Source: Brachybacterium sacelli (GTDB taxonomy: Bacteria; Actinomycetota; Actinomycetes; Actinomycetales; Dermabacteraceae). From it: a stretch of 64,000 bases of DNA. A model generated the notes under the pieces. It did no database searches and was not told where the DNA came from. It saw nothing but the letters and a program-made list of their open reading frames with translations. Both the position numbers and the translations under genes were made by a program. The stretch is from positions 2,294,001 through 2,358,000 of the forward strand of contig NZ_JAGIOD010000001.1 in the NCBI RefSeq assembly GCF_017876545.1, written 5' to 3'. Below are positions 45,645-53,941 of the stretch, piece after piece. How positions within the stretch are numbered: position 1 is the first letter of the stretch; each line of letters opens with the position of its first letter.

Positions 45645-46979
45645 ATGCCTTCCGACCTCGCCTTCGACGACCCCACCTCCGACGTGATGCTCGATGCCGC
45701 CTCCGGGGTGCGGCGCAGCGTCCTGCCCGGCGGGGTGCGCCTGCTGACGCAGACCGATCGCAGCGTGCGCAGCGCCTCCCTCGGACTCTGGCTGCCGGTG
45801 GGCTCCCGGGACGAGCGCCCCGAGCACGCGGGGTCCACGCACGCCCTCGAGCACCTGCTGTTCAAGGGCACCGGACGTCGCACCGCGATGGACATCGCCA
45901 CCGCCTTCGACGAGGTCGGCGGTGACTCCAACGCCGTCACCGCCAAGGAGCACACCCTCTACTACGGCCGGGTGCGCTCGGCCGACGTCCCGATGGCGAT
46001 CGACGTGCTCACCGACATGATCACCGCGAGCCTGCTCACCCCCGAGGCGCTGGAGACCGAGCGCGAGGTGATCCTCGAAGAGCTCGCCATGGCCGAGGAC
46101 GATCCCACCGACGTCGGCTACGAGACCTTCCTGTCCGACGTGCTGGGCCCCGACACCGCCGTCGGCCGGCCCGTCGGCGGCACCGTCTCGAACGTGAGCT
46201 CCCTGGACATCGAGGACGTGCGTGCTCACTACCGGGAGCACTACCGCCCCGACAACCTGGTGGTCACCGCCGTCGGCGACATCGATCACGACGAGCTCGC
46301 CGAGCTGTTGGGCGCGGGGCTGCGCCGGGGAGGCTGGTCCCTGGAATCCGGGTCCCTGCCCACCCACCGGCCGAGCGGGGCCGGTGCCGTCGGGCCCGCC
46401 CCCACCGTCGGCGCCGACGTCGGCGCGATCGCCCCGCACCGTCTGGTGCGCCCGGCCGAGCAGAACCACATCTACCTCGGCGGCCCCGGGATCAGCGCGG
46501 TCAGCGAGGACCGCCACACCCTGTCGGTGCTGATGTCCGTCCTCGGCGGCGGCATGTCCTCGCGCCTGTTCCAGCACATCCGTGAGCAGCGCGGACTGGC
46601 CTATTCCGTGTACTCCTTCACCGCCGGGTACCGCGACGTCGGACTGTTCGGCCTCTACGCCGCCTGCCGTCCGGGCCGCACCGGCCAGGTGGTCGACCTG
46701 CTCGCCGCCGAGCTCACGCAGATGGGTGCGGACGGCATCGGCGAGGACGAGCTGAGCCGGGCGAAGGGTCAGATCACCGGGACCTTCGCCCTCGGCCTCG
46801 AGGACACCAGCAGCCGGATGGGCCGCCTGGGCACGATCGAACTGGTCCACGGCAGATACACGAGCGTCGACGAGACGCTGGCGAAGATCTCCCAGGTCGA
46901 CGCACCGGCCGTGCGCGACCTGGCCGCCCGTCTCGGTGAGTCCTTCAGCACCCGGGTCGAGATCGGGCCCGACGCCTGA
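45645..46979 (+). CDS. M16 family zinc metallopeptidase
   Basis: A 444-residue peptidase of the pitrilysin/processing-peptidase family, orthologous in position to mycobacterial PepR after pnp. The inverted zinc motif HALEHLLFKGT (HxxEH) is near residue 66, with the downstream Glu ligand in the ETEREVILEELAMAEDD region. The C-terminal half shows HIREQRGLAYSVYSFTAGY, the other family signature. No signal peptide, so it is cytoplasmic. A peptide-clearing role is likely but substrates are unknown. Confidence 0.92.
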   Translation: MPSDLAFDDPTSDVMLDAASGVRRSVLPGGVRLLTQTDRSVRSASLGLWLPVGSRDERPEHAGSTHALEHLLFKGTGRRTAMDIATAFDEVGGDSNAVTAKEHTLYYGRVRSADVPMAIDVLTDMITASLLTPEALETEREVILEELAMAEDDPTDVGYETFLSDVLGPDTAVGRPVGGTVSNVSSLDIEDVRAHYREHYRPDNLVVTAVGDIDHDELAELLGAGLRRGGWSLESGSLPTHRPSGAGAVGPAPTVGADVGAIAPHRLVRPAEQNHIYLGGPGISAVSEDRHTLSVLMSVLGGGMSSRLFQHIREQRGLAYSVYSFTAGYRDVGLFGLYAACRPGRTGQVVDLLAAELTQMGADGIGEDELSRAKGQITGTFALGLEDTSSRMGRLGTIELVHGRYTSVDETLAKISQVDAPAVRDLAARLGESFSTRVEIGPDA

Positions 46980-47022
46980 GAGCACCCGCACCCCCTTCGT
47001 CCCCGAACCCCAGGAGAACACC

Positions 47023-47790
47023 ATGACCCCCACCGACCCCACCCCGCTGCGCGTCGCCGTGCTCGGCGCCGGAGGCCGCATGGGCTCCGAGGCCTGCCGC
47101 GCCGTCGAGGAGGCCGAGGACCTCGAGCTGGTGGCGCGGATCGGCCGCGAGGACCCGCTGGAGAAGATCGCAGAGGCCGATGCGCAGGTCGCCGTCGACC
47201 TCACCGTCCCCGCCGTCACCGCCGAGAACGTGCGCTGGCTCGTCGACCACGGCATCCACTGCGTGGTCGGCACGACGGGGTGGACCGAGGAGTCCCTCGA
47301 GGCTCTGCGCAGTCAGCTGGCGGGGGTCGGGGGAGTCGGGGTGCTGATCGCCCCGAACTTCGCGATCGGCGCCGTGCTCGCCATGCGTTTCGCCGGGGCG
47401 GCCGCCCGCTACTACGACAGCGCCGAAGTGATCGAGATGCACCACCCGGACAAGCTCGACGCCCCCTCCGGCACGGCCCGACACACCGCATCCGCCATCG
47501 CCCGCGGCCGGGCCGCCGCCGGGCTCGGCCCCGTGCCCGACGCCACCGCGAAGGATCCGGACGGTGCCCGCGGCGCGGTCGTCGACGGGATCCACGTCCA
47601 CGCGGTGCGCCAGCGCGGCCTGGTCGCGCACGAGGTGGTCCAGTTCGGCGGGCCCGGGGAGCAGTTCCAGCTCCGCCACGACTCCTTCGACCGCGCGAGC
47701 TTCATGCCCGGGGTGCTGCTGGGCGTGCGGGAGGTCGCGGCGCACCCTGGCCTCACCGTGGGCCTGGACGGCTACATGGACCTCGGCTGA
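47023..47790 (+). CDS. dapB: 4-hydroxy-tetrahydrodipicolinate reductase
   Basis: DapB reduces the DapA product on the way to meso-diaminopimelate and lysine. The 255-residue protein has the dinucleotide loop VAVLGAGGRMGSEACRAVE, the CVVGTTGWTEES strand, IAPNFAIGAVLAMRFA and the catalytic EMHHPDKLDAPSGTARH (His and Lys). The ATG follows CAGGAGAACACC. Its pathway partner dapA lies about 5 kb downstream. Confidence 0.97.
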   Translation: MTPTDPTPLRVAVLGAGGRMGSEACRAVEEAEDLELVARIGREDPLEKIAEADAQVAVDLTVPAVTAENVRWLVDHGIHCVVGTTGWTEESLEALRSQLAGVGGVGVLIAPNFAIGAVLAMRFAGAAARYYDSAEVIEMHHPDKLDAPSGTARHTASAIARGRAAAGLGPVPDATAKDPDGARGAVVDGIHVHAVRQRGLVAHEVVQFGGPGEQFQLRHDSFDRASFMPGVLLGVREVAAHPGLTVGLDGYMDLG

Positions 47791-49333: not shown

Positions 49334-50062
49334 ATGACGGCTCCCGAGGACACCTCCGACGCGCTCTCGTCCACCGATGCGCTCCCGCTGCGCGCCCAGG
49401 CCCTCCTGCTGGACATGGACGGCACCCTGATCGACTCCGGTCCCTCGGTCGAGCGTGCCTGGAACACGCTGCTGCACGAGTACGACACCGACCTCGAGTT
49501 CGGGCACGCCCAGCACGGCCGGCCGGCCCGTCAGGTGCTCGCCGAGTTGATGCCCGCGCTCAGCGCCGCGGAGCTCGACGACGCGCACGCGCGCATCGAG
49601 CGGCTCGAGATCGCCGACGTCGACTCCATCGTGACGCTGCCGGGCACGCAGCGGCTGTTGCGCGAGCTGGATGCCGCGGCCCAGCAGCTGGGCCGCGATA
49701 CCTGGGCGATCGTCACCTCCTGCACCCGCCCGCTGTTCGCGGCACGCTGGGGGACCACGGGGCTGCCGGAGCCCGCGCAGCTGGTCACCGCCGACCAGGT
49801 GGAGCGCGGCAAGCCGGATCCGTCGCCGTACCTGCTCGGGGCCGAGCGACTGGGGGTCCGGCCCATGGCGAGCATCGTCCTCGAGGACTCCGTCGGCGGG
49901 CTGCGCTCCGGAGCCGATGCCGGGGCCCGCACCGTCGCCGTGACGAGCACCACGCCCGCCTCGGAGCTGAGCCCGCTGGCGGACGCCCTGGTCACCTCGC
50001 TCGATGACCTGGAGATCCTCGTCGACGGTGAGGATCTGCTACTGGTCCGCCGCGGTAGCTGA
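49334..50062 (+). CDS. HAD-family phosphatase
   Basis: A 242-residue haloacid-dehalogenase-type hydrolase of subfamily IA. The nucleophile motif ALLLDMDGTLIDSGPS (near residue 26), motif II WAIVTSCTRPL, motif III ERGKPDPSPYLL and motif IV SIVLEDSVGGLRSGADAG are all present, with a helical cap between I and II. It resembles sugar-phosphatases and phosphoglycolate phosphatase-like proteins; the substrate is unknown. Divergent from azlC. Confidence 0.88.
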   Translation: MTAPEDTSDALSSTDALPLRAQALLLDMDGTLIDSGPSVERAWNTLLHEYDTDLEFGHAQHGRPARQVLAELMPALSAAELDDAHARIERLEIADVDSIVTLPGTQRLLRELDAAAQQLGRDTWAIVTSCTRPLFAARWGTTGLPEPAQLVTADQVERGKPDPSPYLLGAERLGVRPMASIVLEDSVGGLRSGADAGARTVAVTSTTPASELSPLADALVTSLDDLEILVDGEDLLLVRRGS

Positions 50063-50190
50063 ACGTCACGCCGCGCCTGGGCTCCGCGGGGCGGCGGCGT
50101 TGATAAGCTCGGGCGGCCGATCCCGGTGCCGCGCGACCTGTGGCGATGCCCTCGCGGATCGGAGCCGTCCCCCTCGAAAGGACTCGTCCC

Positions 50191-52947
50191 ATGTGCGGAA
50201 TCTCCGGCAGCTACGGATTCGGCGCCGACTCCGAGGGCATCGCCCGGCGGATGAACAGCGCCCTCGCCCACCGCGGCCCGGACGGCGAAGGACTGTTCGT
50301 CGACGGTCAGACGGCCCTGGCGCACCGTCGCCTGTCCATCATCGACGTCGCCGGCGGCGCCCAGCCGATGACCACCGCCGACGGCCGCTACACCATCGTG
50401 TACAACGGCGAGACGTACAACTACCTGGAGCTGCGCGCCGAGCTCGAGTCCCTCGGCCACACCTTCCGCACCGCCTCGGACACCGAGGTGCTCCTCGAGG
50501 CGCACGCCGAATGGGGCACAGCGGCCTACGACCGCTTCAACGGCATGTTCGCCTTCGCGATCCACGACGCCGAGACCGGGACGGTCACCATCGCCCGCGA
50601 CCACTTCGGCATCAAGCCGCTCTATTACTGGATCGATCCGAGAACCGAGGCGGCCGCGGCGGGCCGTCCCCAGGTCCTGTTCGGCTCCGAGATACGCGCC
50701 CTGCTGGCCGCGCAGCGCTTCGAGGCCGCCCCCGACGACCGCGCGGTCTACCGCTACCTGAAGTTCCGCGTCCAGGACGACGACTCCCAGACCTTCTTCC
50801 ACGGCGTGCGCCGCCTGATGCCGGGACAGGTCCTCGAGATCAGCGCCGAGGGCACCTCGATCACCCCCTTCACCTCCTTGCAGGAGGAGCTGCGCGAGAT
50901 CGCGGGGCGCCCCAGCCGCCCCTACGGCCCCGAGGTCGTCACGGAGTACCGCGAGCGCTTCCAGGATGCCGTGCGACTGCGACTGCAGTCCGAGGTGCCC
51001 GTGGGCACCTCGCTCTCGGGCGGCCTGGACTCCAGCGCGGTCGCCGCCGTCATCGCCCGCCACCTGCGTGAGCAGCCCCAGGACGAGAGCTTCAGCGCCG
51101 TGGGCGCCCGCCAGAACACCTTCTCGGCGGTCTTCCCCAACTCCTCCAACGACGAGGAGCGGTACGTCGACGCGCTGCTGGAGGACTACACCGGTCAGAT
51201 CACCGCGCACAAGATCCATCCGCAGCCGACCTCGTTCCTCGAGGACGTGCGCGACTTCGTGCGCACTCAGGAGGAGCCGATCATCTCCACCGGTCCGTAC
51301 GCGCAGTACGCGGTGATGCGCGAGGCCAGTGACCACGTGACCGTGCTCCTGGACGGCCAGGGCGCCGACGAGATGATGGCCGGGTACAACCCGTACTTCT
51401 ATGTGTACCTGCGCCAGCTGCGCCGTCAGAAGCGGTTCAAGGAGCTCGCCGGCGAGCTCGTCGGCTCCCGCGACATCCTGCGCAAGCTCGCCCGCACGAA
51501 ATACTCGGGGCGCACCTCGGTGCCGATCGAGGCGCTGCTGAACTCCGGCTTCGTCGCCGAGCACAGCGCCGAGAAGGTCACCAGCGTGCAGGACGACCTC
51601 AAGGAGCGCCTGCTCGAGGACACCTTCCGCTCCTCGCTGCCCTCGCTGCTGCGCTACGAGGACAAGAACACGATGCGCTTCAGCATCGAGGGCCGTGTGC
51701 CCTTCGTCGACAAGGAGCTGCTGAAGTTCCTGTTCTCCCTCGACGAGTCCGCGATCATCCATGACGGCTGGAACAAGCGGATCCTGCGCGAGTCGATGGA
51801 CGGGATCCTGCCCGATGCGATCTCCCGGCGTCGCAACAAGATCGGGTTCACCACCCCGGAGGGGGAGTGGTTCCGCACCATCGCCCCGGAGCTGCTGGAG
51901 ATCTTCACCTCCGAGTCCTTCGCGTCCCGTCCCTACTTCGACGCGCCCAGCGTCATCGCGCTGTTCGAGGACTACATCGCCCATCCCGGCAACCACGGCA
52001 CGATGATGTTCTGGCGCCTGCTGAACGTCGAGCTGTGGATGCGCACCTTCTTCGACGACACCGAGAGCTCCTCGCGGTCCCTCGGGGACGAGGCCGCTGC
52101 CGAGGAGCTGGCCGCCCTCGAGGCCTCGGCCCCGCCGGTCGCCGAGCCGGAGGTCGAGGTGCCCAAGAGCGACTACGACGCCAATGCGGACAAGCAGCTC
52201 GACCTGGTCTCGGACTCGGACCGCCACACCTGGCGCCGTCTGCCCCTGCAGACCGAGCTCGTGGCGCGCGAGGACGATCTCGAGACCCTGGTGCGCGAGC
52301 GGGTCGAGCGCTTCGCCGCCACCCTGCCCGCGGACGTCGTGCCCACCGGGTCCCCCTGGTACTTCGTGATCAGCGAGAAGATCATCGCGATCACGCAGGG
52401 CCGTTCCTGGTTCACTTGGGAGATCCGCCCCCGGCCCGCCGCGAAGATCCTCAGCCGCTTCGTCACCCGCACCCCGGCCGGCATCGGGCTGGGCGATCCC
52501 ACCACCATGGAGCTGGCGATCCGCGAGGTCGGCCTGCCGCGGGTGGTGGCGGCCTCTGCGGCCGGCGCGGCCGGCAAGGTCATCGGCAAGCGCGGCCTGT
52601 TCTACGAGGTCGTGGGCGCGAACGTGCGGGCGATCGACGGACCGACGCCCTACTCGGCGTTCCCGTCGAACGTCTCCGCGAAGCTGCCCCCGAAGGATCC
52701 CGACGCGGTGGCCGCCACCCTCTCGGCGGCGATCCGCGGGGCTGACATCCCCGCCGCGCTGCGCGACAGCTTCGTGGGCACCGTCGTCATGGATGCCAAC
52801 GACATCGGGCGCAACGTGCTGGGCTCGGACGTGTCCACCCCGTACGAGCGGCTCGAGGCGACCTTCGCCGACAACCCCCTCGGTCAGGGCCGCCAGCGCA
52901 CCCCGCTGGCGATCCTGGTCGATCTCGGCGCCGCGTCACAGCGCTGA
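50191..52947 (+). CDS. asnB: Asparagine synthetase B fused to a CofE-like ligase domain
   Basis: A 918-residue two-part protein. Residues 1 to about 640 are a complete glutamine-dependent asparagine synthetase: Cys2 nucleophile (MCGISGSYGF), AHRGPDGEGLF, TIVYNGETYNY, the ATP PP-loop SLSGGLDSSAVAA near 275 and FSIEGRVPFVDKELLKFLFS. After an acidic linker (EPEVEVPKSDYDANADKQLD) residues from about 673 to the end resemble the F420-0:gamma-glutamyl ligase (CofE-like, PF01996) group: WYFVISEKIIAITQGRS, TRTPAGIGLGDPTTMELAI, GKRGLFYEVVGANVRAIDGP. One frame, no shift. The fusion suggests coupled amidation and glutamyl ligation; the target is unknown, and wall precursor is one idea because dapA and dapB flank it. 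Confidence 0.88.
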   Translation: MCGISGSYGFGADSEGIARRMNSALAHRGPDGEGLFVDGQTALAHRRLSIIDVAGGAQPMTTADGRYTIVYNGETYNYLELRAELESLGHTFRTASDTEVLLEAHAEWGTAAYDRFNGMFAFAIHDAETGTVTIARDHFGIKPLYYWIDPRTEAAAAGRPQVLFGSEIRALLAAQRFEAAPDDRAVYRYLKFRVQDDDSQTFFHGVRRLMPGQVLEISAEGTSITPFTSLQEELREIAGRPSRPYGPEVVTEYRERFQDAVRLRLQSEVPVGTSLSGGLDSSAVAAVIARHLREQPQDESFSAVGARQNTFSAVFPNSSNDEERYVDALLEDYTGQITAHKIHPQPTSFLEDVRDFVRTQEEPIISTGPYAQYAVMREASDHVTVLLDGQGADEMMAGYNPYFYVYLRQLRRQKRFKELAGELVGSRDILRKLARTKYSGRTSVPIEALLNSGFVAEHSAEKVTSVQDDLKERLLEDTFRSSLPSLLRYEDKNTMRFSIEGRVPFVDKELLKFLFSLDESAIIHDGWNKRILRESMDGILPDAISRRRNKIGFTTPEGEWFRTIAPELLEIFTSESFASRPYFDAPSVIALFEDYIAHPGNHGTMMFWRLLNVELWMRTFFDDTESSSRSLGDEAAAEELAALEASAPPVAEPEVEVPKSDYDANADKQLDLVSDSDRHTWRRLPLQTELVAREDDLETLVRERVERFAATLPADVVPTGSPWYFVISEKIIAITQGRSWFTWEIRPRPAAKILSRFVTRTPAGIGLGDPTTMELAIREVGLPRVVAASAAGAAGKVIGKRGLFYEVVGANVRAIDGPTPYSAFPSNVSAKLPPKDPDAVAATLSAAIRGADIPAALRDSFVGTVVMDANDIGRNVLGSDVSTPYERLEATFADNPLGQGRQRTPLAILVDLGAASQR

Positions 52948-53002: not shown

Positions 53003-53941
53003 ATGACCAGCACCGACCCGCGCCCCGCCCGGCCCTTCGGCACGGTGGGCACCGCAATGGTCACGCCGCTGACCGAGGACGCCCATGGGATCGACCTCGA
53101 CGCCGCCCAGCAGCTCGCGGTGCACGTCACCGAGCACGGCAACGACATGATCGTCGTCTCCGGCACCACGGGCGAGGCCCCCACCCTCACCGATGTCGAG
53201 AAGCTGGAGCTCGCCCGCGCGGTCCGTGCGGCCGTCGGCCCCGAGATCACGGTCATCGCCGGGGTGGGCACCTACGACACGGCGCACTCGATCGACCTCG
53301 CCCGGGAGCATGCGAAGCTCGGGGTCGACGGCCTGCTGGTCGTCACCCCGTACTACTCCAAGCCCACCCAGGCCGGGATCATCGCGCACACGACCGCGAT
53401 CGCCGATTCCACGGACCTGCCCGTGATGCTATACGACATCCCCGGCCGCACCGGCACCCCGCTCGCCTACGAGACGCTGCTGCGCCTGGGCGAGCACGAG
53501 AAGGTGCTCGCGGTCAAGGACGCCAAGGCGAACCTCCAGCAGGCGTCCTTGGTGATGGAGAAGACCGATCTGACGTACTACTCCGGCGAGGACGCGCTGA
53601 ACCTGGCATGGCTGAGCATCGGCGCCTCCGGCATGGTGTCCGTGGTCGGCCAGGTGGCCGGTGACCTGGAGCGCAAGATGGTCGAGGCCGTGGACCGGTC
53701 CGACCTCGTGGCCGCGCGCGAGGCCCACCACGGCCTCGTCCCCGTGGTCGAGGCCATCATGAACCACCTCCCCGGGGCCGTCGCCGCCAAGGCCGCCCTC
53801 GCCCTGCAGGGGGTGCTTCCCCACGCCGCCATGCGAGGACCCCACGTCCCTGCCGACGCCGACCAGCTGCGGGCGCTCGCCGCGGCGCTGGAAGAGGTCG
53901 ACGGCATCCCCTCATGCGATCCCGCCCGGAGGCCCTTGTGA
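53003..53941 (+). CDS. dapA: 4-hydroxy-tetrahydrodipicolinate synthase
   Basis: DapA condenses pyruvate and aspartate semialdehyde, the first step to diaminopimelate and lysine. The 312-residue TIM-barrel protein shows VSGTTGEAPTLTDVEK, VVTPYYSKPTQ, VMLYDIPGRTG with the proton-relay Tyr, and VLAVKDAKANL with the Schiff-base Lys near residue 171. A strong ribosome binding site GGGAGGAGACC precedes the ATG; a TAGGCT box near 52966 may be its -10. The stop overlaps the rnj start (GTGA), the usual dapA-rnj pair. Confidence 0.97.
   Translation: MTSTDPRPARPFGTVGTAMVTPLTEDAHGIDLDAAQQLAVHVTEHGNDMIVVSGTTGEAPTLTDVEKLELARAVRAAVGPEITVIAGVGTYDTAHSIDLAREHAKLGVDGLLVVTPYYSKPTQAGIIAHTTAIADSTDLPVMLYDIPGRTGTPLAYETLLRLGEHEKVLAVKDAKANLQQASLVMEKTDLTYYSGEDALNLAWLSIGASGMVSVVGQVAGDLERKMVEAVDRSDLVAAREAHHGLVPVVEAIMNHLPGAVAAKAALALQGVLPHAAMRGPHVPADADQLRALAAALEEVDGIPSCDPARRPL

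Follow-up and report, generated by a model that had tools for sequence, protein, structure and literature searches.

An asparagine synthetase-like amidotransferase fused to a divergent CofE-like domain in Brachybacterium sacelli, with repeated loss of amidotransferase catalytic residues among its relatives

CofE binds GTP and two Mn ions at its dimer interface and works by an acyl-phosphate mechanism, according to an excerpt of PMC10861534, and chlamydial FolC2 (COG1478), which replaces FolC, is presented in an excerpt of PMC1971073 as a homologue of CofE that, in hosts lacking F420, was recruited to a different carboxylate. Among class II amidotransferases of the asparagine synthetase (AsnB) type, diaminopimelate (DAP) amidases are known (excerpt of PMC8554201), and an N-acetylglutaminylglutamine (Ngg) amidotransferase (TIGR03104) is annotated beside a peptide-bond-forming partner, Ngg synthetase (locus L186). 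Here, a 64,000-nucleotide stretch of Brachybacterium sacelli (NZ_JAGIOD010000001.1, positions 2,294,001 to 2,358,000; "the window") was analysed, in which one gene encodes an AsnB-like amidotransferase fused to a CofE-like C-terminal domain (C-domain).

The C-domain shares with CofE and the FbiB N-terminal domain (PF01996) its fold, element order, and the aligned residues Asp816 and Asp868, and differs from them in sequence (13-18% identity by Foldseek), an insert after TPAGIGLG, a gap ahead of the last strand, other signature motifs, occurrence in hosts lacking CofD, and its fusion to AsnB. FolC2 is similar by description; no link of the pair to folate was noticed, no search having been aimed at one. 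The TIGR03104 system likewise sets an AsnB-like gene beside a ligating partner, and GQGADE is common to the window and L186, but that partner is annotated as Ngg synthetase and is not CofE-like, identity is 32%, and the window protein scores 302.2 bits against a TIGR03104 cut-off of 570.1. LtsA and the AsnB DAP amidotransferases, compared by description only, have the domain order of the N-terminal half, presumably without a C-terminal ligase domain. No description of this recurrent AsnB/CofE-like pair was found in the literature collection searched, to which this statement is confined.

The fused protein and its CofE-like domain

The gene is a single open frame of 918 aa at window positions 50191-52947 on the forward strand, starting MCGISG... 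and ending with a stop codon at 52945-52947; upstream of 50191 the frame stays open to a GTG at 50140, and only the start at 50191 gives Cys at position 2. One match spanning both halves in one frame was found in 23 of 38 Brachybacterium genomes, the window's own among them, so the fusion is no assembly artefact, and the uninterrupted frame proposed in an earlier reading of the letters (the sequence-only reading) was confirmed. As an exception, in genome G003 (L057) the reading frame changes where the two halves meet, through either a frameshift or a true split.

Residues 1-640 form a complete AsnB-like amidotransferase by Pfam (GATase_7, 149.3 bits; Asn_synthase, 237.1 bits), scoring 415.6 bits against the asparagine-synthase equivalog TIGR01536 (cut-off 267.1), with Cys2 and the PP-loop both present; the PP-loop reads SGGLDSS, DGQGADE follows further on, the half is intact in the window strain, and the full class II amidotransferase that the sequence-only reading saw in Cys2 and SGGLDSS was borne out. 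Alignment with E. coli and human AsnB showed that the Glu of the classical GEGSDE site, which we take to be the active-site residue E348 in E. coli AsnB, is not kept, the window having Gln390. The same Gln is present in the annotated Ngg amidotransferase of L186, and in two AsnB-like proteins adjoining glycosyltransferase or O-antigen genes (L187, L188); the matching residue is Glu in the 625-aa second AsnB of L097, and Asn in the separate AsnBs of L184 and L185. This residue pattern tends to point away from plain aspartate as substrate.

The CofE-like tail of about 245 residues had been staked on a PF01996 match, which proved weak when made directly: over residues 686-851 the complete protein scored 18 bits against PF01996, and a 268-aa piece scored 22.5 bits (E 9e-5), below the curated gathering cut-off of 25. 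Deeper profile and structure comparison was clear, and placed the domain in the CofE superfamily. A profile of 27 relatives searched against the PDB returned three CofE sequences (E 2.5e-7 to 3.9e-7; next match 0.14), and an hhalign comparison with 10 canonical CofE/FbiB domains drawn from the genomes of carriers gave 98.8% and E 7.9e-16 over 196 columns. An AlphaFold model of the C-domain (53 sequences; mean pLDDT 90.4, pTM 0.87) was used for a Foldseek search, in which only five PDB chains, all CofE, were matched at E<=0.001 (best E 5.7e-9, next 1.7), with TM scores of 0.47-0.52 at 13-18% identity. The PF01996 cut-off was passed by the stand-alone relatives L152 (40.9 bits) and L171 (42.5), by an adenylate kinase-fused relative (L181, 37.8), and by two TPR-fused relatives (L048, 34.5; L050, 36.0).

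By hhalign, the Asp of the canonical AGvDaSN motif (Asp816) and the Asp of DTxGRpWR (Asp868) are kept, the SN of the former and GRpWR of the latter are lost, an extra segment starting GIGLGxPxTM is present, and stretches before the last strand are missing. The two aligned Asp residues are presumably metal ligands in CofE. Among the 53 C-domain sequences, with identity down to 41%, 44 columns are invariant, including Asp/Asn at the canonical motif positions.

Two further architectures were seen. Elsewhere in the phylum (L048, L050, and L054, the last with PF01996 below cut-off), CofE-like domains are preceded by TPR repeats at the N-terminus, and in a Patescibacteria locus (L181, 7576-8985) the domain is fused to adenylate kinase, with flanking genes that by eye resemble secY and map.

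Distribution of the pair and decay of the amidotransferase half

The C-domain was found in 30 of 38 Brachybacterium genomes; in one genome (G026) just an N-terminal fragment was seen, where a contig ends, and neither half is present in seven (a looser count for the genus, 34 of 38, takes in weak matches to a different glutamine amidotransferase, probably GlmS). Matches occurred in 25 of 396 genomes of a phylum sample, the window's own included, and a scan of GTDB genomes gave at least 594 pattern hits, of which at least 550 were confirmed; the best 80 of these confirmed places were examined further. Carriers among the best 80 comprise Brachybacterium, Intrasporangiaceae, Dermabacter, Helcobacillus, Actinomycetaceae, Sinomonas, Arthrobacter, Salinispora, Catenulispora, Stackebrandtia, a Coriobacteriales metagenome-assembled genome (MAG), Saccharibacteria, and other Patescibacteria. 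An AsnB match adjoins the C-domain in 74 of these 80 loci, the remaining six being a dead fusion (L076), a locus cut by a contig end (L128), and four stand-alone genes (L110, L121, L148, L152). Sampling the phylum to which a Roizmanbacteria genome belongs gave 18 matching genomes of 239: one AsnB fusion, one adenylate kinase fusion, 13 separate genes, one contig-end cut, and two marginal cases. A separate AsnB gene lies just upstream of the ligase gene in two of the 13 (L184, L185), and also in L040. The pairing recurs in other actinomycetes and in Patescibacteria, and the coexistence of fused, adjacent and stand-alone forms argues for a functional pair whose ligase may be able to work alone.

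No C-domain match was found on plasmids at E 1e-3, and PADLOC gave no match. In the phage collection, two unannotated "Bacteriophage sp." records matched the C-domain and were judged likely cellular contigs; one of them, from human faeces (MT835656.1, 5921-6682, 87.4% identity), is probably a mislabelled Brachybacterium contig. In the Coriobacteriales MAG (L097, 6251-8125), a second, ordinary-looking AsnB (625 aa, GEGADE, PF00733 304 bits) abuts the fusion gene.

Six AsnB positions or motifs (Cys2, R47, N72, D97, the PP-loop, and D393-E394) were scored on one automatic alignment, on which the calls of intactness rest. From 123 loci with a match, 115 remained after removal of identical ends, 87 of these had a long N-terminal part, and 86 fused proteins were scored after dropping the TPR fusion L050; the other 28 of 115 were stand-alone or truncated, and were left unscored. 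All six positions are kept in 63 of the 86, eight have losses in the glutaminase half only, 13 are dead, and two, truncated or without a visible start, are uncertain. The dead proteins come from Brachybacterium, either at the window's own HAD-[gene]-dapA-RNase J locus (L060, L062, L063) or with no dapA within the fetched stretch (L058, L061); from Dermabacter/Helcobacillus (L100, L104), Microlunatus (L101), Fodinicola (L115) and Humibacillus (L093); and from two actinobacterial MAGs (L123, L143) and one of Patescibacteria (L103). On a C-domain tree from a quick search (101 of 115 rows, those under 38% identity left out; 34 of 98 inner branches drawn open), no fewer than eight changes are required to account for the dead state, the parsimony minimum on that tree. 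The catalytic residues of the AsnB half have thus been lost repeatedly, in one clade at an unchanged dapA-linked locus, on a conserved ligase half, which is new here.

Conservation was compared in blocks between 11 of the 13 dead proteins (L093 and L103, dead by fewer residues, were left out) and the 63 intact ones. In the AsnB active-site block 361-400, pairwise identity is 32% in the dead versus 81% in the intact proteins, whereas the C-domain blocks from 721 on give 64, 72, 79, 57 and 56% versus 59, 67, 66, 52 and 47%, and block 681-720 gives 35% versus 36%. Within the AsnB half, its end (residues 561-640) is the stretch that the dead proteins have preserved best in comparison with the intact ones. 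Of 16 C-domain positions checked, 15 are unchanged in all 11 dead proteins, and the sixteenth, G799, is Arg in three. Ratios of non-synonymous to synonymous change (dN/dS; pairwise NG86, a crude measure), given as AsnB core, then C-domain, were 1.17, 0.20 for window-L060; 1.02, 0.26 for L060-L062; 0.87, 0.22 for L060-L063; 0.58, 0.27 for L062-L063; 0.49, 0.22 for window-L063; and 0.66, 0.21 for L058-L061. An intact pair, window-L073, gave 0.19, 0.14, and L105-L106 was saturated. In one clade the decay is close to neutral; in older clades it is under partial constraint.

From these sequences, the ligase half seems to stay under purifying selection while the AsnB half decays; since AsnB is lost repeatedly with the ligase half kept, the ligase looks constant and amidation optional. 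The CofE-like half looks like the core, with the amidotransferase as its optional partner, and treating the halves as equals, as the sequence-only reading did, does not fit these sequences. In a Terrabacter/Humibacillus-type group (L084, L085, L087, L088, L091, L095, L096), Cys2 and the PP-loop are kept and other glutaminase positions are lost, an apparent half-way stage of this decay.

A candidate two-step enzyme and its alternatives

Our preferred reading, to which we give a probability of about one half, is a two-step enzyme built round a C-terminal nucleoside triphosphate (NTP)-dependent amide ligase, whose product the AsnB half amidates. The C-terminal half is a divergent, F420-independent member of the CofE superfamily, in which, judging from homology, the NTP and a divalent metal may be held by Asp816 and the Asp868-Asp871 motif, and a carboxylate may be activated as acyl phosphate and joined to an amino compound. 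The N-terminal half is a glutamine-dependent amidotransferase, with a DGQGADE site closer to Ngg amidotransferase than to classical AsnB; intact in this strain, it may amidate a carboxyl group on the ligase's own substrate or product, as the fusion and the adjacency of separate genes suggest. The ligase reaction would be the conserved function, and the amide an optional finish given up by several lineages. We infer that the ligase is active, that its chemistry is of this kind, and that both halves act on one molecule; the earlier suggestion of possible action on a small carboxylate is supported. More tentatively, Patescibacteria and Actinomycetota may have a common amide-ligase pathway, in which the CofE-derived ligase would make a small glutamyl- or aminoacyl-conjugate or an envelope peptide bond, AsnB would amidate it, and the amidation step would repeatedly have been discarded within the fused gene itself, so that a pseudo-amidotransferase chain stays attached to a living ligase.

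Several observations weigh against this two-step enzyme. PF01996 scores stay below cut-off in the dead members scanned (L060, 18.9; L061, 19.5; L123, 21.5; L100, 13.6 bits; none in L058), as does the window's direct match; the TM score to CofE is only about 0.5 at 13-18% identity, with an insert of about 30 residues and a loss of about 26, so the nucleotide and substrate sites of the C-domain could differ. Among older dead pairs the AsnB core is partly constrained (dN/dS 0.27, 0.05 for L100-L104; 0.50, 0.19 for L123-L143), so the AsnB half may do something besides amidation, and the intact pair window-L064 gave 0.45, 0.36 by the same crude measure. Neighbours vary by lineage, with dapA in Brachybacterium, GMP synthase in five Intrasporangiaceae-type loci, YebC in Sinomonas/Arthrobacter-type loci, and gatCAB in nine Patescibacteria loci. 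Seven of 38 Brachybacterium genomes (one just 74% complete) have neither half, so the genus can do without the product. The low TM score, together with the departures from the canonical motifs (no SN of AGvDaSN, no GRpWR), would also suit a CofE-like half that is a binding or scaffold domain and not an enzyme; the 44 invariant columns, with Asp/Asn at the canonical motif positions among them, make this improbable.

A role as F420 gamma-glutamyl ligase, which homology to CofE and CofD over cut-off in nine of 30 carrier genomes would favour, was rejected and has a negligible probability as a general role. CofD over cut-off was found in none of the 38 Brachybacterium genomes, so the genus does not appear to make F420-0; CofD is also absent from 21 of the 30 carriers, 14 of these 21 being MAGs, for which single absences are weak, and all nine CofD-bearing carriers hold a separate canonical PF01996 protein. 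Carriers from Dermabacter (G445), Helcobacillus (G450) and two Actinomycetaceae (G447, G448) gave zero PF01996 matches in that search. F420 is excluded as a general substrate, and the pair is independent of F420; a role in some F420 makers is conceivable. An ordinary asparagine synthetase with a CofE-derived regulatory domain is unlikely, despite the TIGR01536 score, the fusion being the sole PF00733 match above 31 bits in the window genome, and the absence of AsnA from all 38 genus genomes. None of the 38 reaches the AsnRS cut-off of 342.6 either (the best, G019, scores 167 bits), so free asparagine should not be required for translation, and Asn-tRNA presumably arises by transamidation (GatCAB not searched in the genus). 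PF00733 matches outside the fusion reach at most 40.1 bits in the genus, except one of 97.9 bits in G009, and where the AsnB half is dead or missing, the genome has no other match above 30 bits. Moreover, it is the supposedly regulatory half that persists, and in the Patescibacteria sample the ligase is a separate gene in 13 of 18 matches, two of the 13 right behind an AsnB gene. Asparagine supply for translation is not supported as the core role, and translation-linked asparagine synthesis is unlikely.

A peptidoglycan enzyme, in which the AsnB half amidates DAP in the manner of LtsA/AsnB or the ligase adds the extra acidic residues of the A4-gamma cross-bridge of Dermabacteraceae, is a doubtful alternative. 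Its best argument is dapA, directly downstream on the same strand in 27 of the 30 Brachybacterium C-domain carriers (the matches lie about 55 bp to roughly 1 kb apart; G012, G019 and G022 are the exceptions). An A4-gamma, meso-DAP wall is given for B. faecium (excerpt of PMC3035206) and for the family Dermabacteraceae (excerpt of PMC6090031), AsnB-type DAP amidases are a precedent (PMC8554201, as above), the stand-alone form lies just 5' of mraZ and mraW in two Patescibacteria loci (L171, Pfam-checked, and L172), and MurJ is a neighbour in L047, L049 and L053. The MurJ genes are convergent, however, not co-directional, and among 131 fetched loci scanned (ten under 8 kb, whose short flanks could hide a neighbour) dapA occurs in 18, all Brachybacterium. 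Carriers outside this genus presumably have other wall types. The gene is missing from seven Brachybacterium genomes, Gln390 differs from the GEGADE of the second AsnB in L097, and L060, L062 and L063, whose AsnB halves are dead right at the dapA locus, argue against amidation being what the gene does for the wall. Neither peptidoglycan amidation as the core role nor the wall as a general setting is supported, whereas the sequence-only reading's own caution that dap neighbours do not prove a wall role was justified.

These results set a sizeable group of sequences, at least 550 confirmed places in one genome scan, apart from both functions to be expected from their domains: organisms lacking CofD retain the CofE-like half, and translation in the genus does not need the AsnB half, which is not always alive. 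One gene with natural loss of one half, and natural absence in sister species, offers an experimental handle on CofE-type ligases beyond F420 and folate.

Features and neighbours of the locus

Table 1. Features of the fusion gene and nearby genes in the window (positions within the 64,000-nucleotide stretch)
Feature	Position	Strand	Evidence
AsnB / CofE-like fusion protein, 918 aa	50191..52944	+	Open reading frame (ORF), translation, Pfam, genus search
Class II glutamine amidotransferase domain, residues 1-175, nucleophile Cys2	50191..50715	+	Pfam GATase_6/7; Cys2, R47, N72, D97 present
Asparagine-synthase-type adenylating domain, residues 252-618	50944..52044	+	PF00733 237.1 bits
PP-loop SGGLDSS, residues 276-282	51016..51036	+	Sequence
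DGQGADE, residues 388-394; Gln390 versus Glu in E. coli/human AsnB	51352..51372	+	Alignments
Putative CofE-like ligase domain and linker, residues 651-918	52141..52944	+	Pfam, profile comparison, model, Foldseek
GIGLG motif, residues 764-768, opening the segment absent from canonical CofE	52480..52494	+	Alignment, hhalign
Asp816, aligned with Asp of canonical AGvDaSN	52636..52638	+	hhalign; invariant in alignment of relatives
DAND, residues 868-871, aligned with canonical DTxGRpWR	52792..52803	+	hhalign; D868, N870, D871 invariant
DNPLGQ, residues 894-899, family signature near the C-terminus	52870..52887	+	Alignments
dapA, 55 bp downstream of fusion gene	53003..53941	+	PF00701 223.9 bits; genus adjacency
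HAD-family phosphatase, immediately 5' of fusion gene	49334..50062	+	Pfam
dapB, not a direct neighbour of fusion gene	46936..47790	+	ORF as listed, Pfam

The placement between dapB and dapA given by the sequence-only reading stands for dapA, which follows directly, but not for dapB, which is separated from the fusion by four genes: one for a 137-aa protein of no assigned function, azlD and azlC on the opposite strand, and the HAD phosphatase gene. Of eight extra Brachybacterium loci examined, five keep the window's locus, upstream HAD phosphatase included. A canonical FbiB/CofE-type protein without a nitroreductase match (L001, 997-2190; G000:C2:742299-742889; 397 aa, PF01996 154.3 bits) is present in 37 of 38 Brachybacterium genomes, none of which has CofD over cut-off; CofE is thus an orphan here, the genus lacking the F420 pathway.

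Neighbourhoods were compared by ORF clustering round 66 chosen loci and by reading of 15 Patescibacteria loci, with neighbour names resting on reading by eye unless Pfam-checked. As a guide to the substrate, gene neighbourhood was rejected, the neighbours being lineage-specific. The gatCAB loci are L136, L138, L145, L146 and L148-L152 (one GatA, one GatB and one GatC Pfam-checked); this order is partial in L184 and, in the same clustering, not present in L102, L108 or L147. In the nine Patescibacteria loci, the gene sits between lemA-htpX-like genes and gatC-gatA-gatB.

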